A stretch of DNA of 24,106 bases from a virus. The position numbers were made by a program, and so were the translations under genes. The stretch spans positions 1 to 24,106 of IMG/VR virus record IMGVR_UViG_3300027741_003298, one strand, 5' to 3'. The notes beneath the pieces were generated by a model, which was not told the origin of the DNA, ran no database searches, and saw nothing but the letters and a program-made list of their open reading frames with translations. This document shows positions 1-17,734 of the stretch, in pieces. How positions within the stretch are numbered: position 1 is the stretch's first letter; every line of letters begins with the position of its first letter.

Positions 1-351
1 AGTGGAAAGATTGTGCGCATACTCAAAAAACAACACACTGTGCCTTTCAGCGATGAAAAGGACTGGCTGTTGATCGACACTGACCCGGCCAAGGGCAATC
101 GTGGTCTGGGTCTCAAGTGGATACCGGCCCACACACGATTTGAATGGGTCAGGCCCTATCGTGACACCGTGGAGGAAAACTTTGCCGACGGCCGGGGCCC
201 GGGTCGTCCAGGAGACAGCCAACGCCATGGTATTCCCAAGGGTGCTACCATGGCCCAACTGGAAAAGGCTGCAAAAGCACCAGGCCGTAAAGGACAGCTG
301 GCCCGCTGGCAACTAAATATGCGTAGAGGAAAGAAAAATGAGAGCCAATGA
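1..351 (+). CDS. C-terminal part of a phage protein, basic tail (5' truncated)
   Basis: The reading frame is open from the first base, so the gene very probably starts upstream of the window; a GTG at 13 is the only nearby internal start. The visible 116 residues end in a basic module (GDSQRHGIPKGAT, then GQLARWQLNMRRGKK). I recognise this kind of tail from hypothetical proteins of marine T4-like phages, but it has no function I can name. It overlaps the next gene by 14 bases, and that gene also has basic tail modules, so the two may belong to the same class of DNA-associated or head-packaged proteins; that is inference. The SD-like stretch AGAGGA for the next gene lies within its last codons. 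Confidence 0.7.
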   Translation, partial: SGKIVRILKKQHTVPFSDEKDWLLIDTDPAKGNRGLGLKWIPAHTRFEWVRPYRDTVEENFADGRGPGRPGDSQRHGIPKGATMAQLEKAAKAPGRKGQLARWQLNMRRGKKNESQ

Positions 352-2275
352 AATCATCACTGAAAAGTGGAGTGCCAAATACAAGCGCAGTATCAACTGC
401 AGCCACCCTCGTGGCTTCAGCCAACGGGCGCATTGTGCTGGTAAAAAGAAGCACACGGAAAGCCATGAGGTAATGGAACAGGTGTGTCCCGACTGTGGTA
501 TGTGTCAAACACACGGCAATGTCATGGAAATTCGAAAAGGCCAAAAGGACGCAAATGGCTATACCCGTTGCTGGCCTGGCAAGCATGCTGAAGGTACCAA
601 GCAGGGCAAAAACGGTCCTGTACGCAACTGTGAGCCCAACGAGTCGCAAGGTGTGGCGGAAGGTGCCGGCAACAACTTACAAACAATTATAAAGTCTTTC
701 GTTGACAGTCCAAGTGGGCAGAAATATAAAAAATACGATTGTAAAACAATAACCAGGGTATTTGTACAATGGGCAGAACAAAATAAAATTCCAGCACAGG
801 TAATTTCATTGGCTCCGCCCAGTGCTGAATTTATCAAAAAAAATCCACAGTTCAAAGGTAAGAGTGGCCAAGGTGATGGACACATCATGCCTGTGGTCGA
901 CGGCAATGCCATTGACTTTACTGTAAGACAGTTTGGGATTACCAAATCTTTTGAAAATCCATTAGTAACACCAACCAATAGTCTGCCAGCAGTGTATGGC
1001 AGATTTGGATATTTTACAGACAAGCCAGAATGGTTCTTGGGAGGTAAATCTTATTGGATGGGTCCACTAAGTTCAATACCAAACAAAATTTTTAATCAAA
1101 ATTTTAGTGATGAAATGTTAGAGCAAGGTGTGGCGGAAGGCGAAGGTGGTTTGGGTCAAACAGCCGGTATAGGTATAAATGGTAAACAGTTTAACTTCAG
1201 TATTAAAGACCTTATCGCCAAAGCACAAAATTATCCTGAAAAAAAATTAAATCCGCAGTTATTTGTTAAGCAATTGGCAGATAGACACGAGGACCCAAAG
1301 CAAACAGCCGCAAGAGCACAGGCCGCTGATTTACAATATCCTATTATTGTTGTTCAAGATGGCAACACATTGATGATTGCTGATGGCACACATAGAGCAC
1401 AAAAAGCCATAATGAATAAATTGCCTAGTATCAATGCTCGTGTGATACCAGTAAAAGATATGGATGAATTCAGTCAGCAAGGTGTGGCGGAAGGCTCCGA
1501 GAACAATAACCCAATAGCAAATAAAATATTCTTTGCTCGTAGTAATAAAACACCCAAAGGCTGGAGTTATGACCATGTTGGATTTATAACTCAAGATGGA
1601 AAACAAATTCAAATGAGTGGGCATAAAGGCAATGATGTATATGTCACTAACGATGTGACTGATGATCCAGAGTTTCCTAAACAAAATATCAAAATTGTAT
1701 CATTATCAAAACCAGTATTGGTTCCTACAACCAACACAGTAGGAGCAGAAAATTGCGGAACATTTGTAGCAAATGTATTACAAACCAATGGTATAAAAGG
1801 TATTGATACACAAAAAATATATAGTGTGTTCAAAAAACCTCATCAGCAAGGTGTGGCGGAAGAACTCAACGAAGAGTTTGATCTAATCGAAAGCATCATT
1901 GAAGATATTGCCGCCCAAAATGGTGTAGATGCCGAAGCAGTATGGGAAGACCTAGAATCACTCACAGAAGATGAGTTGTATGCATTTGCTGTGACTTCGC
2001 AACTGAACGAAGATTGGCAAAAGGCCAACAAACAGGATCGCACAGCAGGCATGAGTCAGAAAGCTGTGAACGCTTACCGTAGAGAAAATCCCGGCTCAAA
2101 ATTGAAAACTGCTGTGACCACAAAGCCTTCAAAGTTAAAGCGGGGCAGCAAGGCATCAAAGCGCAGAAAGAGCTATTGCTCACGCAGTCGTGGTCAAATG
2201 AAAATGCACAATATTTCGTGTGCCAAGACTCCGGACAAGGCCATCTGCAAGGCACGCCGACGCTGGAACTGTTGA
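338..2275 (+). CDS. modular polyprotein with four QGVAE cleavage-like linkers
   Basis: A 645-residue protein beginning MRANEIITE|K, which resembles the T4 internal-protein capsid-targeting leader (MKTYQEFIAE|A). Four copies of Q-G-V-A-E occur at residues 104-108, 263-267, 381-385 and 504-508, and split it into five parts. Part 1 (about 10-103) is Cys-rich and basic, with CSHPRGFSQRAHCAGKKK and CPDCGMC. Part 2 has Cys135/His182/Asp193. Part 3 has DGTHR at 349-353. Part 4 has His413 and Cys473 (ENCGTF). Part 5 is acidic, then strongly basic, ending in a Cys-containing CSRSRGQMK...ARRRWNC tail. T4 prohead protease cuts after (L/I)-x-E, so V-A-E|G is a plausible cut site. I infer a head-packaged precursor whose pieces are injected. 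Start chosen for the AGAGGA upstream and the leader match. Parts 2-4 are AT-rich. Confidence 0.75.
   Translation: MRANEIITEKWSAKYKRSINCSHPRGFSQRAHCAGKKKHTESHEVMEQVCPDCGMCQTHGNVMEIRKGQKDANGYTRCWPGKHAEGTKQGKNGPVRNCEPNESQGVAEGAGNNLQTIIKSFVDSPSGQKYKKYDCKTITRVFVQWAEQNKIPAQVISLAPPSAEFIKKNPQFKGKSGQGDGHIMPVVDGNAIDFTVRQFGITKSFENPLVTPTNSLPAVYGRFGYFTDKPEWFLGGKSYWMGPLSSIPNKIFNQNFSDEMLEQGVAEGEGGLGQTAGIGINGKQFNFSIKDLIAKAQNYPEKKLNPQLFVKQLADRHEDPKQTAARAQAADLQYPIIVVQDGNTLMIADGTHRAQKAIMNKLPSINARVIPVKDMDEFSQQGVAEGSENNNPIANKIFFARSNKTPKGWSYDHVGFITQDGKQIQMSGHKGNDVYVTNDVTDDPEFPKQNIKIVSLSKPVLVPTTNTVGAENCGTFVANVLQTNGIKGIDTQKIYSVFKKPHQQGVAEELNEEFDLIESIIEDIAAQNGVDAEAVWEDLESLTEDELYAFAVTSQLNEDWQKANKQDRTAGMSQKAVNAYRRENPGSKLKTAVTTKPSKLKRGSKASKRRKSYCSRSRGQMKMHNISCAKTPDKAICKARRRWNC
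646..663 (+). repeat. in-frame repeat copy 1, encodes QGVAEG
   Basis: GCAAGGTGTGGCGGAAGG. The first 17 bases are identical in all four copies (starts at 646, 1123, 1477, 1846), and base 18 is shared by three. All copies are in the same reading frame. This copy joins the basic Cys-rich N-terminal part to the first AT-rich cassette. Confidence 0.95.
664..1122 (+). other. cassette A: Cys/His/Asp papain-like or transglutaminase-like module
   Basis: This stretch encodes about residues 109-262 of the polyprotein. It contains DCKTITRVF (Cys135) at a helix-like start, then GDGHIMPVV (His182) and NAIDFT (Asp193). That order and spacing fit a papain/transglutaminase-like fold, where a Cys at a helix start is followed by His and Asp on strands. 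Repeat-to-repeat length is 477 bases, exactly 159 codons. Base composition is clearly more A/T-rich than the regions before 640 and after 1900. Enzyme activity is inferred only from motif order; the family is not recognised with certainty. Confidence 0.45.
1123..1140 (+). repeat. in-frame repeat copy 2, encodes QGVAEG
   Basis: Identical over 18 bases to copy 1. It separates cassette A from cassette B. The flanking sequences differ (GAGCAAGG versus GTCGCAAGG), so conservation is limited to the repeat itself. Confidence 0.95.
1141..1476 (+). other. cassette B: ParB/sulfiredoxin-like module
   Basis: This stretch encodes about residues 268-380. YPIIVVQDGNTLMIADGTHR ends in D349-G-T-H-R353. A hydrophobic strand, a D-G turn and a (D)GxHR box are typical of ParB-like nuclease/CTPase and sulfiredoxin folds. 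The repeat-to-repeat length is 354 bases (118 codons). It is AT-rich like its neighbouring cassettes. The match rests on one motif, so the family call is tentative. Confidence 0.5.
1477..1494 (+). repeat. in-frame repeat copy 3, encodes QGVAEG
   Basis: Identical over 18 bases to copies 1 and 2. It separates cassette B from cassette C and is preceded by CAG, as copy 4 is. Confidence 0.95.
1495..1845 (+). other. cassette C: permuted NlpC/P60 / LRAT-like module
   Basis: This stretch encodes about residues 386-503. It reads YDHVGFIT (His413), then MSGHKGND (His429), and near the end AENCGTFVANVL (Cys473). His before an Asn-Cys helix is the circularly permuted order of LRAT/YiiX-type NlpC/P60 enzymes (HxG...NCxxF), which act as peptidases, amidases or acyltransferases. 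Repeat-to-repeat length is 369 bases (123 codons). It is AT-rich. The fold assignment rests on motif order and is inference. Confidence 0.5.
1846..1862 (+). repeat. in-frame repeat copy 4, encodes QGVAEE
   Basis: Shares 17 bases with the other copies, then diverges (GAAGAA rather than GAAGGC/GAAGGT), giving E-E instead of E-G at the putative cut. It marks the return to the less AT-rich C-terminal part of the gene. Confidence 0.95.
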
Positions 2276-4203: not shown

Positions 4204-4745
4204 TGAATCAAACCAAAGCCATTTGCTTGGTAGCACATCCCGATGACTGTGTGATTTTTGGCTACAGTTACATCTACAATCATCCCGAGTGGTCCTGGGC
4301 CATTGGTTATCTAACCTATACACAACAAGATACTCGGGGCGCAGAACTGGCAGCATTTTGGCAGCGCCGAGGTATTCCCACAGTATTTCTGGGGTTTGAA
4401 GATCACTGGCATGACAACGAACAAAAACAATTCACTCGCTGGTCAGCCGCAGAAGCCGAGTCGGCTCTCTGGAACTTGGCCAAACAATATGATGTTGTTC
4501 TCACACACGATGCACAAGGTGATTATGGTCATATACATCATGTGCTGGTTCACCAAGCAGTAAAGCAGCACCCGGCTGTGGTTGAATTCGCTCCTCCCGG
4601 TCAAGGCAATGTGATTCACGAAGTTCCTGCTGATGCATACAGCCTAGATGAACTTCCGCAACATGGTGAAATAATAAAAGGATTTCATGGTCAAGCACAC
4701 CGCAACAGTTATCATGAGCCGGACTCTATAAATACTAGACCATGA
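4203..4745 (+). CDS. PIG-L / LmbE-family N-deacetylase
   Basis: A 180-residue protein with a GTG start that overlaps the upstream TAG. The zinc-site motif AHPDD is at residues 11-15, and a second motif, THDAQGDYGHIHH, gives the remaining His ligand. This is the standard signature of the PIG-L/LmbE family, which removes acetyl groups from N-acetylglucosamine-containing lipids, bacillithiol/mycothiol precursors and antibiotics. The protein is somewhat shorter than many family members (around 220-260). Its stop overlaps the ATG of the GH19 gene. With the neighbouring PanE-like and glycosyltransferase-like genes it suggests editing of a sugar or capsule precursor. Substrate unknown. Confidence 0.8.
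   Translation: MNQTKAICLVAHPDDCVIFGYSYIYNHPEWSWAIGYLTYTQQDTRGAELAAFWQRRGIPTVFLGFEDHWHDNEQKQFTRWSAAEAESALWNLAKQYDVVLTHDAQGDYGHIHHVLVHQAVKQHPAVVEFAPPGQGNVIHEVPADAYSLDELPQHGEIIKGFHGQAHRNSYHEPDSINTRP
4727..4734 (+). promoter_or_regulatory. T4-type late promoter box close to the GH19 start
   Basis: A perfect TATAAATA within the end of the deacetylase gene, only 7 bases before the ATG at 4742. Late transcripts normally begin a few bases after this box, so the message would be nearly leaderless. No SD is visible between box and ATG. Confidence 0.6.
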
Positions 4746-5389
4746 GAGCCCACGAATTCCTGATCGAAACCTCAGTGCCAGGTCATGATGTTGACGAGGG
4801 CATAAAAAGTACCATTGCGGGCCTGGGTCTAGCTGCAGCCGCAGCATCTGGCATGGCTTCACAATACATGCCCAGACCCGCAGAACCTGCGGCTGCTGCA
4901 CAACAGGCCACGCCACAGGCACAGCTACAGGCCACAGCACAGGCTGCTGGTCTCAAAGGTACCGAACTGACGCAATTCATGGCTCAGTGTGCTCACGAAA
5001 CTGCAGACTTTACCCGCATGAACGAAAAAGGCAGCAGCCAGTACTTTGCGAAAAAGTATGAAAATCCCCGGGCCCGAAAGATCTTGGGCAATACACAAGC
5101 CGGAGACGGTGAACGATTCCGGGGACGTGGTTACATACAGCTGACCGGTCGAGACAACTATACTCGTGCAGGCCGTGCACTGAATCTTCCCTTGGACACC
5201 AACCCCGACCTGGCAGCCAGACCCGATGTGGCAGCCAAGGTTGCGCTGTGGTACTGGAAAAACCGTGTGGCCACAAAGGTAAAAAACTTCAGTGACACTG
5301 ACGCTGCCAGCAAAGCCATAAACCCCCGGGGACATCACGTGGATCGCCGTCAGCAACAGTTTGCTCAATACGCACAAGCTCGAATTTGA
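4742..5389 (+). CDS. GH19 chitinase/lysozyme-like protein with capsid-targeting-like leader
   Basis: A 215-residue protein. It begins MRAHEFLIE|T, resembling the T4 internal-protein leader, followed by HDVDE|G at 16-20, another possible prohead-protease site. An Ala/Gly-rich hydrophobic stretch (about 22-40) and an Ala/Gln/Pro linker (about 44-70) come next. The GH19 domain contains FMAQCAHET (Glu86, probable catalytic acid), Glu95 (probable second acid), LGNTQAGDGERFRGRGYIQL and TGRDNY. GH19 phage enzymes cleave peptidoglycan or chitin. The leader suggests packaging in the head and injection, or a tail-tip role, rather than simple endolysin action; that is inference. The start matches the late-promoter box and leader of the neighbouring proteins. 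Confidence 0.8.
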   Translation: MRAHEFLIETSVPGHDVDEGIKSTIAGLGLAAAAASGMASQYMPRPAEPAAAAQQATPQAQLQATAQAAGLKGTELTQFMAQCAHETADFTRMNEKGSSQYFAKKYENPRARKILGNTQAGDGERFRGRGYIQLTGRDNYTRAGRALNLPLDTNPDLAARPDVAAKVALWYWKNRVATKVKNFSDTDAASKAINPRGHHVDRRQQQFAQYAQARI

Positions 5390-5402
5390 CACTAAATACA
5401 GC

Positions 5403-5699
5403 ATGAAACAATATGTTCGAGTGCTGTGTGATGTGGATTGTATATGGCAGCAGCCGCATCCACGCTATCGTGTGTTTGTAAACAACGAACTGTTTGCTGA
5501 ACGCGAGTGGTCCTGGACTGACAGCACCCTGGAAGAAGTGATTCAGATCGAAGCTGAACCTGGCAAATATGTCGTCGGCTATCAACTGCTGCCACATGAA
5601 TCAGCTGAGTTAATTGCCGGCAATCTCCGAGTAGATCACGGCTCAGCTGATGTTGATGGCTGGACTGTGACCATACACCCATGCGATTCCGAGAACTGA
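5403..5699 (+). CDS. conserved phage hypothetical, 98 aa
   Basis: Start taken at ATG 5403, after the GH19 stop (5387-5389); an in-frame upstream ATG at 5361 would overlap GH19. The protein is rich in beta-strand-like segments (YVRVLCDVDCIW, YRVFVNN, WTVTIHP) with no membrane segment or catalytic motif. Function unknown. A CTAAATAC element at 5392-5399 lies 3 bases before the ATG and no SD is seen. It overlaps the next gene by 19 bases. Confidence 0.7.
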   Translation: MKQYVRVLCDVDCIWQQPHPRYRVFVNNELFAEREWSWTDSTLEEVIQIEAEPGKYVVGYQLLPHESAELIAGNLRVDHGSADVDGWTVTIHPCDSEN

Positions 5700-5887
5700 T
5701 CGAAACTACCAGCACTGTGTCAGGTGCCATTGCCACTGTGGCCCAACCTCTAGGCGGGGTGGTGACAAGAAGCGGCGGATCCTTGTTAAGTGGTAAATAC
5801 ACAGTGGATCCTGTTCCCAACACTCCACCCAAATATCGAAGGAAAAAACATGCTGGCGGAAAGTTTAAAAACTCTATTGGCAACTGA
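5681..5887 (+). CDS. small putative head-packaged protein, 68 aa
   Basis: The 68-residue protein starts MRFRELIE|T, again a short amphipathic leader ending in Ile-Glu that resembles a capsid-targeting peptide. The rest contains VSGAIATVAQPLGGVVTRS and a basic tail (PKYRRKKHAGGKFKNS). Small proteins with an 'ATVAQPLGG'-like segment occur in T4-like marine phages, without known role. It overlaps the previous gene by 19 bases and the Dps gene by 38 bases. Its own SD is not evident. The leader places it in the same putative packaged set as the genes at 338, 4742 and 6909; that is inference. Confidence 0.6.
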   Translation: MRFRELIETTSTVSGAIATVAQPLGGVVTRSGGSLLSGKYTVDPVPNTPPKYRRKKHAGGKFKNSIGN

Positions 5888-6290
5888 GTATGCCTACACA
5901 ATTAAATCTCAGCTGTTTCACTGGAACGTGGAAGGTGCTGACTTTGTGCAGTTGCATGAGTTTTTTCAAACCATCTACGAAGATGCCTACAGCGCCATTG
6001 ATCCCACTGCTGAATACATTCGCAGTCTAGAAGAATACACTCCCGGCAGCTTTGAGCGATTCCTGGAACTGAGCCAGATAGGTGGACAAACACGCATACC
6101 CCGAGCCAGACTCATGATCGAAGAGCTGTTGGCCAACAGCATGACCATGATCGAGCTGCTGAATCAGTGCTTTGCCGAAGCCGAAGCCGAAAACAAACAA
6201 GACATTGCCAATTTTATGGCCGAACGACTGAGCCAACACAACAAATATGCTTGGCAAATGCGCAGCTTGCTCAAGGAAGCACGAGCATGA
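5850..6290 (+). CDS. Dps-like ferritin
   Basis: A 146-residue protein starting at ATG 5850, with AAGGA 6 bases upstream; an earlier in-frame start at 5790 lacks an SD. The sequence QLFHWNVEGADFVQLHEFF...IYEDAYSAIDPTAEYIRSL carries the Dps ferroxidase ligands His24, His36, Asp51 and Glu55. Their spacing (12, 15, 4) matches E. coli Dps. The length is close to the usual ~160. Dps proteins form 12-mers that oxidise and store iron and often bind DNA. In a phage it could protect packaged or replicating DNA from oxidative damage, or handle host iron. It overlaps the next gene as ATGA. Confidence 0.85.
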   Translation: MLAESLKTLLATEYAYTIKSQLFHWNVEGADFVQLHEFFQTIYEDAYSAIDPTAEYIRSLEEYTPGSFERFLELSQIGGQTRIPRARLMIEELLANSMTMIELLNQCFAEAEAENKQDIANFMAERLSQHNKYAWQMRSLLKEARA

Positions 6291-6908: not shown

Positions 6909-8780
6909 ATGAACTTGCTAGACATTTTTACTGAGAGCACACAACTCCCGCCCAAGGGCACCGAACCGCGTACCTGGGACGAGATGACACCACAACAAAA
7001 ATCATCTGGTGTGAAAGGCCGCACAGTTTGGAACGAAAAAACTCGCAAGTATCGCACCGTGTTTGATGTTCCTGCAGATAAAAAACCTCAAGAACCTGGT
7101 GTGGCGGAAGACTCAGTGGAAGAGGGTTGGAAAGGTGCGTTGGCAGGTGCTGCCCTGGCAGGGCTGGGTGCCTTGAGTGGTGCTCCAGCACAAGCCGCAG
7201 ACTTGAGCAATTTTAATACACAATATCTTCAACAAGTGGTCAGCGGAGAGCACTCTCGTCCCATGGTCAGTGTTGACGATGCCCGAGCAGAACTACAGGC
7301 ACGAGCCGATGGCAAACAACAAGCTGCGCCTGCTCGGCCTGCACAATCTCAAGCAGCAGCCGGCTACAGCAAAGAATGGTTGCAAAAGGCTGCTGATCCA
7401 AATAGAACTGGCCGTTACATGATCAGTGTGGAAAAAGCGCAAGAATTACTAGGCAACATGCAAGAAGGTGCCATGGACGAGACCATCGACTGGGCTCAGA
7501 TTCGACGAGATATAGATGCTGGCTTGAGGTCAACTGTCGACCAATATTCTCGCCGAACACAAGAAAAACAGCCAAAGCCGGGTTTCATGCAACAAGTTGG
7601 ACAAAAACAAATTGGCATGGTCAAGGGCGCCATGCAGGGCTTGCGCGGCGAGCCAGTGGCGGAAGGCTCGCTAACCGAACTAAGCAAAAACACATTGAAG
7701 TCTTACTCCGGAGAACGTGGTACAACTATTCATCAAGACCAACGTGATGCCGATAGAGCAAGAGATACGGCCGCAGACAAAAAGAAGCATGGCAACACAA
7801 AGGCTGCTGCTGATTGGGAAGATGAAGCAAGTTGGTTGGATAAACGAGCCGAAAAAGGTGCAAAAGGTGTTGCACAAGCAGCTATTAAGATTGCCAAGAA
7901 AGGCATGGCGGAAGGCTTCAACGCCGAATACGATGACGAAGCCGGCATGGCACACACCAATCTGCACACCATTGCGAGAGACGCACAGAGTTTGTTAGAC
8001 ATTATCAACAGCCACGAAAACTTGCCTGAATGGGTGCAGGAAAAGATTGTGAAGGCACAGGCCATGCTGTCAGCAGCCTGGGACTATCTAAAAAGTCAGG
8101 AAGAGCAAGGCATTGATCCCAGAATGGGCATGAACGAAATGTCCCGAGTGGGCGGTGTTGGTGACTACAGACAGATACAGACATTCAAAAACCCACCCTC
8201 CCAGGATCCGCAAGATCGCTTGCCCAATCATATAAAAATCTTGATCCAGCAGCTGAAACGCGATCCCAAGTACACTCCGGAACAGCGCCTGGAACTGATT
8301 CAAAATCTTGTCAGTCAACACACCATTGATCGGCAGATTGAAGAAAACATTGCCATTGACTCGCGAGCCCTAGAACCCGGTTCCATTGTGTACAACGGTG
8401 CCATTGGCGTGGGCGAAGTGCTGGGTTCAGATGGTCGCACAGTGCGTGTGCGCAGCTGGGAAGGTCGTGAAAATCGTCTGGCTCCCAGCACAGTGCGTTT
8501 TGTGGCCAATCGCGAAACACAGCCCACCCTGTACACCTGGAAAGGTCGTCCACAAGTGGGTGTGTTGGACCGATTGAACCAGAGATTTCAAGAGCGCGAT
8601 CAAGCCCTGGCCGAACAGCAGTTGGCCGAACTGAGTTTCCTGGGCAGCGAGTGCACCAAGGACTGTTCAGGACATCGTGCCGGCTATGACTGGAGTCATC
8701 GCAAAGGTCTGCGCCAGGCCAACAGCCCATACAGTCCCAGTTTCAACAAAGGTGCTGCACTGGCAGTGGCCGGCAAATAA
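6909..8780 (+). CDS. modular 623-aa protein with VAE/MAE cleavage-like sites
   Basis: Begins MNLLDIFTE|S, a leader like those at 338, 4742 and 5681. Putative cut sites are GVAE|D (64-68), VEE|G (70-73), PVAE|G (249-253) and GMAE|G (332-336); the DNA at these sites keeps GTGGCGGAAG or ATGGCGGAAG. After VEE|G comes an Ala/Gly-rich hydrophobic stretch (75-97). Then an imperfect repeat follows: YLQQVVSGEHSRPMVSVDDA and WLQKAADPNRTGRYMISVEKA. Residues 254-332 are highly charged (many KK, DR, EK). The C-terminal part includes a beta-rich section (IVYNGAIGVGEVLG) and a tail with CTKDCSGHRAGYDWSHRKG. I infer a precursor of packaged peptides, several probably DNA-binding. No enzyme motif recognised. 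Confidence 0.7.
   Translation: MNLLDIFTESTQLPPKGTEPRTWDEMTPQQKSSGVKGRTVWNEKTRKYRTVFDVPADKKPQEPGVAEDSVEEGWKGALAGAALAGLGALSGAPAQAADLSNFNTQYLQQVVSGEHSRPMVSVDDARAELQARADGKQQAAPARPAQSQAAAGYSKEWLQKAADPNRTGRYMISVEKAQELLGNMQEGAMDETIDWAQIRRDIDAGLRSTVDQYSRRTQEKQPKPGFMQQVGQKQIGMVKGAMQGLRGEPVAEGSLTELSKNTLKSYSGERGTTIHQDQRDADRARDTAADKKKHGNTKAAADWEDEASWLDKRAEKGAKGVAQAAIKIAKKGMAEGFNAEYDDEAGMAHTNLHTIARDAQSLLDIINSHENLPEWVQEKIVKAQAMLSAAWDYLKSQEEQGIDPRMGMNEMSRVGGVGDYRQIQTFKNPPSQDPQDRLPNHIKILIQQLKRDPKYTPEQRLELIQNLVSQHTIDRQIEENIAIDSRALEPGSIVYNGAIGVGEVLGSDGRTVRVRSWEGRENRLAPSTVRFVANRETQPTLYTWKGRPQVGVLDRLNQRFQERDQALAEQQLAELSFLGSECTKDCSGHRAGYDWSHRKGLRQANSPYSPSFNKGAALAVAGK
7098..7110 (+). repeat. GGTGTGGCGGAAG, partial copy of the VAE repeat
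   Basis: Thirteen bases identical to the core of the four repeats at 646-1862, in frame to encode G-V-A-E. It appears in a different gene 5 kb away, so the repeat is not confined to the first polyprotein. Confidence 0.85.
7656..7667 (+). repeat. GTGGCGGAAGGC, partial copy of the VAE repeat
   Basis: Encodes V-A-E-G at residues 250-253 in the same frame as the others; the sequence continues with TCG/TCC as in repeat copy 3. Likely the same repeat family, decayed on its 5' side. Confidence 0.7.
7905..7916 (+). repeat. ATGGCGGAAGGC, partial copy of the VAE repeat
   Basis: Encodes M-A-E-G at residues 333-336. It differs from the consensus at one base of the GTG codon (ATG) while keeping GCGGAAGGC. 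Confidence 0.6.
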
Positions 8781-8941: not shown

Positions 8942-9202
8942 ATGACTACCAAAACATTCAACGGCGAACAAAAAATCAAGCTGACTCAAATTATTAATGA
9001 AGGCATGGCTGTCATGCACGAGATTGATACCTTGCAGGGCGGACTCACTGACACTATCCGAGCAGTAGCTGAAGAGCTGGAGGTCAAACCCGGAATCCTG
9101 AAAAAAGCCATTCGCCTGGCACACAAGGCCGAATTCGGTAGAGAAAAACAAGATCACGAGACCTTGGAAACTATTCTTGAGACCGTGGGAAAAACACTTT
9201 GA
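8942..9202 (+). CDS. dsbA: dsDNA-binding protein, T4 DsbA-like
   Basis: An 86-residue charged helical protein. The C-terminal pattern (KPGILKKAIRLAHKAEFGREKQDHETLETILETVG) resembles T4 DsbA and its cyanophage relatives, where a KK..(N/A)KLA..(Y/F)..Q/K..(E/H)EE(F/L)E.LYE segment is conserved. T4 DsbA (about 89 residues) binds double-stranded DNA at late promoters and helps gp33/gp55-directed transcription. A strong sigma70 promoter and a clear SD (AGGAG, 6 bases before ATG) precede it. The call is by resemblance, not certain. This DsbA is unrelated to the disulfide isomerase of the same name. Confidence 0.6.
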   Translation: MTTKTFNGEQKIKLTQIINEGMAVMHEIDTLQGGLTDTIRAVAEELEVKPGILKKAIRLAHKAEFGREKQDHETLETILETVGKTL

Positions 9203-10299
9203 GTTTGTCAAAAAATTATCCAATAAGATTATTGGTAAAGGAATACACAAAGTTCCAAATGCCAACTGTTTTTTTGGAAAAAAATCTCAAAGGCAAATTT
9301 TGTCTTTCACCGTTTGTGTCTATACAAATAGACCCCTGGGGTAATGTTAGTCTTTGTGGATGCGATCTCTGGATGCCCACAAAAATTGGCAATTTGTTTA
9401 ATCAAACACTTGATCAATTACTGAGTTCTGAGATTGCAAAAAGCATACGCAACAGTATTATTCGGGGAACTTATGAATATTGCAACGAAAAAACCTGCGG
9501 AATAATACAAAACAACGAGTTGATTAACAATGAGCAGTTGCCACCAAACGTGTATGATTTGATTGAAGATTCGACAAGTTTTGCAATTCCTCATGAGATA
9601 GTAATTGCAGGTGACCGGACCTGTAACTTGTCCTGCCCTAGTTGTCGAACCAGCGTGATACGCACAAGCGATAGTGAACGAGCACGACAACAACAGCTCG
9701 GAAATACTCTTTTTCAAAACTTATTCACACGTCCTAGTGACGCTCCTATCAAAATAACAGTAAGCACCAGTGGAGAGGTATTTGCCAGTACATTTTTGAT
9801 GCAATTTTTATCCAATATTGATCCTGAAAATTTCCCCAATTTAAAATTAAAATTACAAACCAACGGGCTATTGGCCAGAAAAAGATGGCACTTGTTGGCA
9901 AGATTGGTTGATCGAGTTTCCGAGATTACCATAACATTTGATGCAGCAAGATCCAACACCTATGAAATTTTAAGGCGTGGAGGAACTTGGCCAGATTTGC
10001 TTGATAATTTGAAATTTCTGTCTGATCAACGTCAAACAGGTATGAAGCTTTACACACGCATGGTGGTACAACAAGCCAATTGGAACGAAATTTTAGAATT
10101 TTACGATATCAGTCAGCAGTTTGATGCTGATCGTGTAGAGTATGTGAGAATCACAGATTGGGGCACATACGGTACAGAATTTTCAAAACATGATGTTTTA
10201 GATCCCAATCATCCAGAATATGCTGCAGCACAACACATGATACAACAGGTATTGAAATTACCAAAATCCTGGGTTGCCAACGGTATTATCAAAGTCTGA
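9199..10299 (+). CDS. radical SAM protein with N-terminal twitch/SPASM-like domain
   Basis: Up to 366 residues if it starts at TTG 9199 (overlapping the upstream TGA); ATG 9259 is an alternative start with no better SD. The radical SAM [4Fe-4S] site CNLSCPSC gives Cys142, Cys146 and Cys149. Before it lies an unusual N-terminal auxiliary-cluster region: FCLSPF (Cys35), SLCGC (Cys53, Cys55), and CNEKTCG (about 94-99). Such 'twitch' or SPASM domains normally sit C-terminal to the core. Downstream are DWGTYG and DPNHPE, shared with the second copy at 15066. Radical SAM enzymes cleave SAM to make a 5'-deoxyadenosyl radical; the substrate is unknown. The gene is markedly A/T-rich versus its neighbours, suggesting transfer. 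Confidence 0.85.
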   Translation: MSLSKNYPIRLLVKEYTKFQMPTVFLEKNLKGKFCLSPFVSIQIDPWGNVSLCGCDLWMPTKIGNLFNQTLDQLLSSEIAKSIRNSIIRGTYEYCNEKTCGIIQNNELINNEQLPPNVYDLIEDSTSFAIPHEIVIAGDRTCNLSCPSCRTSVIRTSDSERARQQQLGNTLFQNLFTRPSDAPIKITVSTSGEVFASTFLMQFLSNIDPENFPNLKLKLQTNGLLARKRWHLLARLVDRVSEITITFDAARSNTYEILRRGGTWPDLLDNLKFLSDQRQTGMKLYTRMVVQQANWNEILEFYDISQQFDADRVEYVRITDWGTYGTEFSKHDVLDPNHPEYAAAQHMIQQVLKLPKSWVANGIIKV

Positions 10300-15065: not shown

Positions 15066-16136
15066 GTGGATTTTTCAAATATAAAATTATCCCCGGCGTT
15101 AAAGTATACCTTGAGATCCATGCCTCGTGGCAAAAAATACAACGGATCAATCCCATACTCGTGTAGTATGCCTTTCAATCAAGTGAGTGTGGATCAAAAC
15201 GGTGATTGTTTTTTATGTAGTTGCGAAGGGCATTTGCCTATTCCTGTGGGCAAAGTTGATGAATTTGATTCTATAGAAAATGTATTAGATTCTCCAATTG
15301 CTCAGATGTTGCAACAAGACATAAAAGAAAAAAAATACACCTGGTGCGCAGTAGAACACTGTGGGGTAAAATATCGTAATATTACAAAATCTGTATTACA
15401 ATTGAGTATACATATCGATGACAGTTGTAATCTTGCTTGTCCTAGTTGTCGAAGACAAGCATACATGATCGATTCAGGACCAGAATTTGATAAAAAATTA
15501 AATCAAATAAAACATATTTTGTCCTGGCTAGATAAATTTAACAAACACATACTCATAAGTCTTGGTGGTACCGGAGATCCGTTAGCTAGTCATATTTTAC
15601 GACCATTGATCTTGGATTATGAGCCTCGAGAATCTCAAAAGTTTGTTATTACCACAAACGGGTTACTACTAAAAAAACTCATGTCTAGGAGTAAAATAAA
15701 AAAATCAGTGACTCGTTACAGCATCAGTGTCGATGCTGCATCAGAGCAGGTATACGAAAATGTACGCAGACCTGGAAAATGGCACAATCTTGTTGAAAAC
15801 TTGGAATGGATTTCTCAAAATCGAGACAACAGCTCGATCACATTGAACTTTGTGGTTCAAAAAAGCAATTATCAAGATTTGCCGGCATTTGTTGAACTAT
15901 GCCGAAGCCTAAACACAACCGGCACAATAGTACCACTAGATGACTGGGGTACTTGGAATTCGCAACCAGTATTGAATCCTGATGAGTATACCATAAAAAA
16001 TGGCTGCTATACTGACCACAATGTAGTGGATGTTGCTCACCCAGAACATCAACAATTCAATGATATGTTGAAGTCTCTAAGAGGCAATCAACCTAATTTT
16101 ATAAATATTTCTCCATTTTTCAATCGATTCCAATGA
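15066..16136 (+). CDS. radical SAM protein with N-terminal twitch/SPASM-like domain (second copy)
   Basis: A 356-residue protein with a GTG start at 15066 just after the previous stop. The radical SAM motif CNLACPSC is preceded by an N-terminal Cys region: CSMPF, FLCSC, CAVEHCG. This arrangement is shared with the protein at 9199, including the later DWGTW and AHPEH segments, so the two are paralogues. The radical SAM core has LGGTGDPLAS, probably the GGE-like SAM-binding segment, and the strand FVITTNGLL. The substrate is unknown. It is A/T-rich against its neighbours. It precedes the DpdA-like gene with an ATGA overlap, so it might function with DNA-base modification, but it lacks QueE features I can recognise. 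Confidence 0.85.
   Translation: MDFSNIKLSPALKYTLRSMPRGKKYNGSIPYSCSMPFNQVSVDQNGDCFLCSCEGHLPIPVGKVDEFDSIENVLDSPIAQMLQQDIKEKKYTWCAVEHCGVKYRNITKSVLQLSIHIDDSCNLACPSCRRQAYMIDSGPEFDKKLNQIKHILSWLDKFNKHILISLGGTGDPLASHILRPLILDYEPRESQKFVITTNGLLLKKLMSRSKIKKSVTRYSISVDAASEQVYENVRRPGKWHNLVENLEWISQNRDNSSITLNFVVQKSNYQDLPAFVELCRSLNTTGTIVPLDDWGTWNSQPVLNPDEYTIKNGCYTDHNVVDVAHPEHQQFNDMLKSLRGNQPNFINISPFFNRFQ
16100..16107 (+). promoter_or_regulatory. T4-type late promoter box before the DpdA-like gene
   Basis: TATAAATA near the end of the radical SAM gene, 25 bases before ATG 16133. The surroundings are A/T-rich, so a chance match is possible. Confidence 0.45.
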
Positions 16137-17734
16137 CGCAACACAACTTCACAGCCACACAAACTGGCGCAGATGGCCTGAGTCAATGGGCTGTGTTTTT
16201 GCCGGCCATATCCGGCTTCTATGCCACCTACATAGGCAAACAGCGGGATCCTGTGAACGGTCCTTGTGTGGATCCGGCTAGAATGCCCGTGGCCATTCAG
16301 GACATGGAGCAACTGAATTGGCTCAACGCACAAAAAGGCATGTTCCCCTATCGCTGGAGCCTGTATTCGGGAGGACATGCCAACCTAGATCTCACCCGGC
16401 AGGACTGGTCCGAAGATATGGTTCGCAACCGCGATCCCAATACTGTGATGCTGGGAGATTCAGGTGGATTCCAGATTGCCAAGGGCCTGTGGGAAGGTGA
16501 CTGGCGTGCCAACTCGGGTTGTGCCCGGGCACAGAAAAAACGCTCGGCGGTATTGACTTGGCTGGACTCGATCAGCACCTATGGCATGGGCCTGGACATT
16601 CCCACCTGGGTCATACACGACAAAAAAGCCAGTGACGCTTGTCAAATAAAAACCTTAAGTGAAGCTATTGCAGCCACCAGATACAACAACGAATACTTTA
16701 TTCAGCACCGGCGTGGCGTTGCAGAAGGTGGTGCCAGATTCTTGAATGTGTTGCAGGGCGACAATCATGACAATGCCGAAGACTGGTATCAGATCATGAA
16801 AGAGTACTGTGATCCAGTTCGGTACCCTGGCAGGCATTTTGACGGTTGGGGAATGGGCGGACAAAACATGTGCGATGTTCACTTGATATTGAAACGCTTG
16901 GTTGCCTTGCGACACGACAATTTGTTACAGGAGGGATTACATGATTGGATGCACTTTTTGGGCACAAGTAAATTGGAATGGGCAGTACTACTTACGGCCA
17001 TACAACGAGCAGTTCGTAGATATGTCAACCCGCGTTTTACCATCAGTTTTGACTGCGCCTCACCATTCTTGGCCACAGCCAATGGTCAAGTATACCATCA
17101 CATTGACCTCACCCACAACAGCAAATGGAGCTACAAAATGCGACCCATTGCAGACGACAAAAAGTACGCCACAGACACTAGACCGTACGGACAAGCAGCC
17201 CTAGCCGATGGCCTAGTGGATCACTTTGACGAATCGCCGGTGAGCCTGGGGTTACAGATGAAAGATGTGTGCATTTACAAGCCTGGAGATTTGAACAAGA
17301 TCGGCAAAGAAGGCAAAACAAGCTGGGACAGTTTCAGCTATGCGTTGCTGATGGCACACAATGTTTGGACACACATTGAATCAGTGCAACAGGCCAATCT
17401 AGCCTATGATTCTGGACACTCATGGCCGGCCATGATGTGGAATCAAGGCACCAAAGGGCGTACAGGTGATCATGTGAAATTTGACCAAATTGTGGATGCC
17501 ATATTTGCCACCCCAGATCGAGAGGAAAGCGAAGCCATCATAGAACACTACAATCGCTACTGGATGGACATTCCGGGCACCAGGGGCTTTAAAGGTGACA
17601 AAACTGTCAGTGCCAGACCACAGTTCAATGTGTTGTTTGGATTTGAAGAAACTGCAGTTGACAACCAAACATCAGATAGTGTAGAATTAGATCAAGACCT
17701 ATTGACTCAACTGGAACAAGGATCCCTGACATGA
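16133..17734 (+). CDS. dpdA: TGT-like base transglycosylase, DpdA family
   Basis: A 533-residue protein. VMLGDSGGFQIAKG matches the tRNA-guanine transglycosylase (TGT) active site, with Asp109 for base recognition. FTISFDCASPFLATANGQVY aligns with the TGT FDC..P.R..RNG segment, giving the nucleophile Asp307. RHFDGWGMGG corresponds to the TGT G(L/W)..GG loop. Near the C-terminus SYALLMAHNVW corresponds to the TGT helix with the zinc-binding His, but the CxCxxC cysteines are absent. Phage DpdA proteins are TGT relatives that swap guanine in DNA for 7-deazaguanines (preQ0 or derivatives) to escape restriction. Length exceeds bacterial TGT (~375), as in phage forms. folE at the window end and a QueD-like gene at 19192 support a DNA-modification role. 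Confidence 0.8.
   Translation: MTQHNFTATQTGADGLSQWAVFLPAISGFYATYIGKQRDPVNGPCVDPARMPVAIQDMEQLNWLNAQKGMFPYRWSLYSGGHANLDLTRQDWSEDMVRNRDPNTVMLGDSGGFQIAKGLWEGDWRANSGCARAQKKRSAVLTWLDSISTYGMGLDIPTWVIHDKKASDACQIKTLSEAIAATRYNNEYFIQHRRGVAEGGARFLNVLQGDNHDNAEDWYQIMKEYCDPVRYPGRHFDGWGMGGQNMCDVHLILKRLVALRHDNLLQEGLHDWMHFLGTSKLEWAVLLTAIQRAVRRYVNPRFTISFDCASPFLATANGQVYHHIDLTHNSKWSYKMRPIADDKKYATDTRPYGQAALADGLVDHFDESPVSLGLQMKDVCIYKPGDLNKIGKEGKTSWDSFSYALLMAHNVWTHIESVQQANLAYDSGHSWPAMMWNQGTKGRTGDHVKFDQIVDAIFATPDREESEAIIEHYNRYWMDIPGTRGFKGDKTVSARPQFNVLFGFEETAVDNQTSDSVELDQDLLTQLEQGSLT

Follow-up and report, generated by a model that had tools for sequence, protein, structure and literature searches.

In-frame DNA repeats at the boundaries of exchangeable cassettes in a putative head-packaged polyprotein of T4-type phages

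The mobile regulatory cassettes of T4-type phages (PeSLs) are intergenic promoter/stem-loop elements, and in the polymorphic toxin, Rhs and CDI systems cassettes are swapped behind a conserved junction, at times with a cleavage motif, at one C-terminal slot. The internal proteins of phage T4 (IPI-IPIII and Alt) have the leader alone in common and are injected anti-restriction proteins (PMC12373910; PMC3012670). The targeting peptide is removed by T4 gp21, which cuts after L/I-X-E (PMC9026906), and the cuts fall after S/A-X-E in phiKZ and after A-X-E in SPN3US (PMC9026906; PMC5694885). Polyvalent proteins have been likened to the polyproteins of RNA viruses, and their release by embedded peptidases was suggested (PMC5512222).

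The DNA analysed in this study, hereafter the window, is the whole stretch of 24,106 nucleotides from position 1 to 24,106 of the IMG/VR virus record IMGVR_UViG_3300027741_003298. An earlier note on this DNA had claimed that one ORF, here ORF 338-2275, is divided by four repeats into cassettes of whole codons (for the layout see Table 1). Four exact copies of GCAAGGTGTGGCGGAAG were indeed found in this ORF, with start-to-start distances of 477, 354 and 369 bases, each divisible by 3, and all four copies encode QGVAE in frame. A search with the 16-mer, allowing up to 3 mismatches, gave 6 matches in the window against 0.26 expected, a number reached by none of 100 shuffles; near copies are located in ORF 6909-8780 at 7095-7110 (PGVAED) and 7899-7914 (KGMAEG), together with an extra VAEG site at 7656-7665. 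The GC content is 0.38, 0.39 and 0.34 for cassettes C1, C2 and C3, respectively, and reaches 0.51 and 0.47 in modules N and D, which flank them in the same ORF, in agreement with the claim that the cassettes are AT-rich. For C1 and C3, the pair compared, no sequence similarity was found, as expected for cassettes that had been described as unrelated to each other. The alignment with phrog_727 runs as one stretch over residues 58-645, and looks like that of an N-D protein into which the cassettes had been inserted. The array C1-C2-C3 in this order was found only once, in the window itself.

Table 1. Location of the ORF, its modules, cassettes and repeats, and of the second probable cassette protein in the window (a slash marks the putative cut)
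Feature	Position	Strand	Basis or remark
ORF of 645 aa: targeting-like peptide, N module, C1, C2, C3, conserved C-terminal module D	338..2275	+	
Capsid-targeting-sequence-like N-terminus MRANEIITE, end I-T-E	338..364	+	sequence; resembles commonest starts in related loci
N module (WSAKYKRSINCSHP... VRNCEPNES)	365..645	+	directly after QGVAE in other phages
Repeat 1, GCAAGGTGTGGCGGAAG, encodes QGVAE/G	646..662	+	exact copy
Cassette C1, papain/transglutaminase-like fold (predicted)	662..1123	+	relatives, model, fold comparison
Repeat 2, GCAAGGTGTGGCGGAAG	1123..1139	+	exact copy
Cassette C2, ParB_N-like	1139..1477	+	phrog_17560 and BLASTP matches
Repeat 3, GCAAGGTGTGGCGGAAG	1477..1493	+	exact copy
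Cassette C3, permuted NlpC/P60-like fold (predicted); best-sampled mobile cassette	1493..1846	+	protein scan, model, contexts
Repeat 4, GCAAGGTGTGGCGGAAG	1846..1862	+	exact copy
Module D, DUF6321 (PF19846), C-terminus basic and Cys-rich	1862..2272	+	PF19846 E 2e-8
Second probable cassette protein, start MNLLDIFTE; sites PGVAED, PVAEG, KGMAEG	6909..8780	+	ORF, near-repeat matches

Relatives of module D are encoded in 591 of 599 IMG/VR stretches among the matches listed. A fixed protein co-evolving as one unit was sought in these relatives, and the result was the reverse, in favour of the claim that the cassettes are exchangeable: between ...VRNCVPNES and EEFDLIE..., the content of 17 orthologs that share the N and D modules varies from 4 to 408 aa. 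The empty insertion site consists of 4 aa (for instance in locus L163), L095 carries a bare QGVAEG at the insertion point (8 aa), and the loaded inserts are 79, 109, 120, 220, 245, 388 and 408 aa in length, all seven different and that of the window the longest. The insert of L209 has a related cassette in other phages, where QGVAE flanks it. Four loaded orthologs (L162, L186, L209 and L229) are without a complete QGVAE, indicating that other joins or decayed copies exist.

The 17-mer CAAGGTGTGGCGGAAGG was detected in at least 120 IMG/VR stretches, and at least 33 viral loci contain two or more copies. Among the matches listed, the frame that encodes QGVAEG is the longest open frame in 161 of the 163 exact viral copies, and the viral ORFs in this frame are at minimum 101 aa and at median 593 aa in length. 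In cellular genomes, 70 stretches carry single copies each, none of the 70 examined having two, and QGVAEG is the longest open frame in 25 of the 70; these cellular copies are compatible with chance. At the GVAE sites, which were not themselves selected on, yet lie within contigs picked by the repeat, GGT, GTG, GCG and GAA are used at frequencies of 0.95, 0.84, 0.85 and 0.89, against a background of 0.44, 0.21, 0.07 and 0.80. When 20 contigs were picked by protein similarity alone, a degenerate pattern detected 30 sites, of which 22 share a single one of the 256 possible spellings; the reversed control pattern gave no match in the same 20 contigs. The preferred codons, together with the uniform spelling in protein-picked contigs, indicate that the element is conserved both as a peptide and as DNA. 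The DNA repeat and the motif that it encodes form a single element, with the frame and the synonymous codons both conserved.

The presence of copies in many unrelated proteins, with a lone copy in L095 and none in L163, might also be expected of a small selfish element inserting in frame, like the Rickettsia palindromic elements, with the shuffling as a by-product. We consider this very improbable, because whole cassettes move and homology breaks at the repeats, as described below, and because the near-uniform frame is beyond what indiscriminate insertion predicts. By inspection the 17-mer is neither palindromic nor an inverted repeat, and an insert of the Rickettsia type was rejected as a candidate on this ground.

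For analysis of cassette mobility, C3 was retrieved by protein similarity, independently of the repeat, and this protein scan yielded 28 loci, to which copies in other loci of the collection were added. The relatives are 84-98% identical, and the contexts in which they lie number 20 on the left and 17 on the right, counting each distinct one once. In pairwise comparison of the DNA, identity is about 0.29 outside, rises to 0.7-0.86 in the left repeat, reaches up to 1.0 within the cassette, is 0.8-0.92 in the right repeat, and falls back to about 0.3 within 5-10 bases beyond the far repeat; exceptions include L151 and L152, in which C3 is present and the repeat is decayed or absent. The cassettes are mobile, with boundaries at the repeat, and the breaks of homology at DNA level coincide with the repeats, which was the check that had been proposed for the junctions. 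In a set of 191 non-redundant proteins, 12.3% of the internal homology ends lie no more than 5 aa from a site in each of the two proteins, whereas random placement gives 0.24% (200 draws, highest 0.7%). At 75% identity or higher, 108 of 274 right homology ends lie 0-4 aa past a site, forming a sharp histogram peak that BLAST extension through the repeat may sharpen by a few residues but cannot generate. At 50% identity or higher, 17.5% of the unique homology ends are at a site; taken together with the inserts of L162, L186, L209 and L229 mentioned above, this indicates that the repeat is not the sole junction. The 217 internal cassettes, a small sample, include 26 families with at least two members, and in nearly all of these families the neighbours differ. 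The decayed junctions QDVSEG and QEVT still delimit C3 in L140-L145 and L152, and their position at the ends of C3 suggests that repeats erode after exchange. Overall, the cassette interpretation of the earlier note is supported.

The strong conservation of 17-20 bp as DNA across unrelated contexts could be explained if a dedicated site-specific recombinase recognised the repeat, as in an integron-like cassette system within ORFs. This is improbable, since the repeat is without symmetry, synonymously changed or decayed copies still flank cassettes, and general recombination genes of the RecA/UvsX family were identified in 6 of 10 long relatives.

All the cassette instances are from metagenomic IMG/VR contigs, and neither the 30-base repeat consensus nor cassette C3 gave a credible match against 50,697 phage records; in the ortholog of Synechococcus phage DSL-LC02 both modules, N and D, are retained and QGVAE is absent. 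With no isolate of this collection carrying C3 or an above-chance repeat match, the mosaics might be chimeric metagenome assemblies formed at a repeat, but we regard this as extremely improbable. Assemblers usually work with k-mers longer than the repeat, the joins are in frame, the C3 architecture recurs in six metagenome records (L140-L145) and the C1 architecture is shared by L126 and L127, and one and the same gene exists in empty, single-repeat and loaded versions.

The N-terminus MRANEIITE has the form of the T4-type targeting peptides, which are about 10 residues long with L/I-X-E at the end, and the commonest targeting-type starts in the related loci are MRANEFITE, MRATEFITE and MRAKEFIVE. 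Such targeting-like starts are moderately enriched among the site-bearing ORFs (41% vs 18%). The segments after targeting-like peptides and those after QGVAE were found to be homologous at equal offset in 258 pairs, C1, N and D included: a relative of C1 in L125 is placed directly behind a targeting-like peptide (MRIQELLTE/SETSLQTI), the N module is found in both positions (MRANEFITE/GWSQKYK and QGVAE/EWSQKYK), and so is module D (MKMNDILNE/DLIEEFDLIES and QGVAE/DLSEEFDLIES). Peptidase_S77 was identified in 10 of 20 long relatives and Gp23 in those same ten, and the capsid protein of one of these ten has its nearest counterparts, with about 65% identity, in jumbo phages, among them PA5oct and Paride. 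The 24-kb window is too short to include the gp21 and gp23 genes and carries neither; both are known from the relatives' contigs that cover head genes. The V-A-E of the repeat is near the T4 gp21 motif L/I-X-E, though not identical to it. In a test of the P3 residue at homology junctions, VAE was the commonest tripeptide (35 of 498), and among the same 498 tripeptides hydrophobic-x-E was without general enrichment, so that it is the equivalence of positions on which the case for a protease motif is built. This equivalence, combined with the gp21-type cutting and with the occurrence of Peptidase_S77 and Gp23 in relatives, leads us to infer that QGVAE is a candidate internal head-protease site.

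The difference between VAE and L/I-X-E leaves room for an uncut, head-associated multidomain ('polyvalent') protein, in which QGVAE would be a permissive linker at recombination junctions and the likeness to a protease site incidental, all the more as polyvalent proteins with disparate domains are known or predicted to be packaged in virions (PMC5512222). We consider an uncut protein rather improbable, given that the same domains stand at equal offset behind [ILV]xE targeting-like peptides and behind QGVAE, that the VAE core and the frame are kept in copies with a changed Q or following G, and that a gp21-type protease is present in every relative covering head genes.

As to the nature of the cassettes, C1 has 4 relatives with 71-85% identity, in which C27, H74 and D85 are invariant, and its model (pLDDT 82.8) is nearest to SseI, protein glutaminase and the C-terminal domain of Pasteurella toxin (VIA-align Z 8.0-7.2). 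The model of C3 (pLDDT 71), with H28 and C88 as invariant residues, is nearest to a Bacillus cysteine peptidase, YiiX, H-REV107 and TseH (Z 6.4-5.4). The predicted folds are papain-like for C1 and permuted NlpC/P60-like, of the cysteine hydrolases, for C3, the moderate Z values being informative for the fold class only. Pfam and PHROGs name a function for neither C1 nor C3, and nothing significant was matched when the PDB was searched by sequence. C2 resembles ParB_N in sequence, as judged from the matches to phrog_17560 (E 3.5e-12) and to the ParB_N cassette of L150 (BLASTP 2e-7); close relatives of C2 were not found in IMG/VR. The claim that each cassette resembles a different fold holds in part: C1 and C3 both gave papain-superfamily models, whereas their circular permutations differ and C2 is ParB_N-like. 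Locus L150 (L150:311-3511) encodes a 1067-aa array of deaminase, C3, ParB_N, TAT-like stretch, LysM and lytic transglycosylase (SLT). The predicted cassette folds and the domains of L150 fit proteins that would act on the host at entry. A TAT-signal-like stretch (PF10518, under the curated cut-off) is located inside cassettes of L056, L101 and L150, an odd position for such a signal.

Several other ORFs of the window were noted. A GH19 endolysin-like ORF at 4742-5389 (PF00182 E 8.5e-13, phrog_181) has the targeting-like start MRAHEFLIE/TS, as would be expected if the head contained a packaged muralytic enzyme. A Dps/ferritin-like protein is encoded at 5790-6290 (PF00210 E 1e-18; phrog_3636, DNA-binding protein), adjoined by a short ORF at 5681-5887 with the targeting-like start MRFRELIE. 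The ORF at 9199-10299 is of the radical-SAM type, with Pfam matches to Radical_SAM and SPASM, and a second ORF of this type, by eye only, is at 15066-16136. The 533-aa ORF at 16133-17734, with no Pfam or PHROG match, looks by eye only like a relative of tRNA-guanine-transglycosylase/DpdA, a resemblance that would hint at modified bases in the DNA.

We propose that the product of ORF 338-2275 is a polyprotein packaged in the head of a large T4-type phage, with exchangeable cassettes released by protease, a model that we hold to be probable as a whole. The N-terminal targeting peptide would bring the polyprotein into the prohead core, where a protease of the gp21 type would cleave it behind IITE and behind every QGVAE, freeing N, C1, C2, C3 and D; the freed proteins would be retained in the capsid and pass into the cell together with the DNA. 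The QGVAE-encoding DNA of 17-20 bp would be the junction for gain, loss and swap of cassettes between phages, the simplest route being short-homology recombination in co-infection, and ongoing exchange would hold the DNA spelling uniform. As the reading frame through the repeat is always the same, each exchange would be in frame and give a ready-made cut domain. Cleavage, packaging, injection, the effector role and the recombination pathway are what we infer from the genomes compared. We lean slightly toward the broader proposal that one short DNA word serves as both recombination junction and prohead-protease site, and that diverse large T4-type phages share a pool of in-frame, self-releasing cassettes, borne as polyproteins within the capsid, for virion-delivered effectors.

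If true, the model would explain how phages swap injected proteins without loss of frame. The tag CAAGGTGTGGCGGAAGG / QGVAEG would then list unannotated virion-delivered domains straight from metagenomes, ORFs cut at the tag would give candidate mature proteins, and the origin of internal-protein diversity would become testable. The arrangement also suggests a natural design for loading several polyprotein cargos into a capsid via one targeting peptide. A description of such repeats or of such a system was not found in the PMC full text under open licence, a scope within which absence is weak evidence. Among head-packaged phage proteins, the dual-use cassette array may well merit recognition as a separate kind.

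Compared with the known systems, the repeats resemble PeSLs in that a short repeated DNA is the exchange junction in T4-type phages, but differ in being placed within ORFs and encoding a peptide; the PeSL class was rejected after the finding that QGVAEG is the longest open frame in 161/163 of the copies listed, in long ORFs. As in the polymorphic toxin, Rhs and CDI systems, cassettes are swapped at a conserved junction, but here there are several internal slots flanked on both sides; that class was likewise rejected, the variation being internal and the C-terminal D module conserved. Disparate domains in one polypeptide, a mark of the polyvalent proteins, are present, with C1 papain-like, C2 ParB-like and C3 permuted NlpC/P60-like by prediction. 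Like the polyvalent proteins of phages and conjugative elements (PMC5512222), the ORF combines unrelated domains with a predicted DNA-coupled entry; unlike them, it has repeated candidate head-protease sites in place of release by an internal peptidase domain, and they are not known to have a conserved in-frame DNA repeat as cassette junction. With the T4 internal proteins it shares the form of the [LI]xE targeting peptide of about 10 residues (PMC9026906) and the variable cargo; a gp21-type protease and gp23 are encoded in 10 of the 20 long relatives. Unlike those single-cargo genes, it carries several cargos per ORF, joined by repeat-encoded QGVAE sites.
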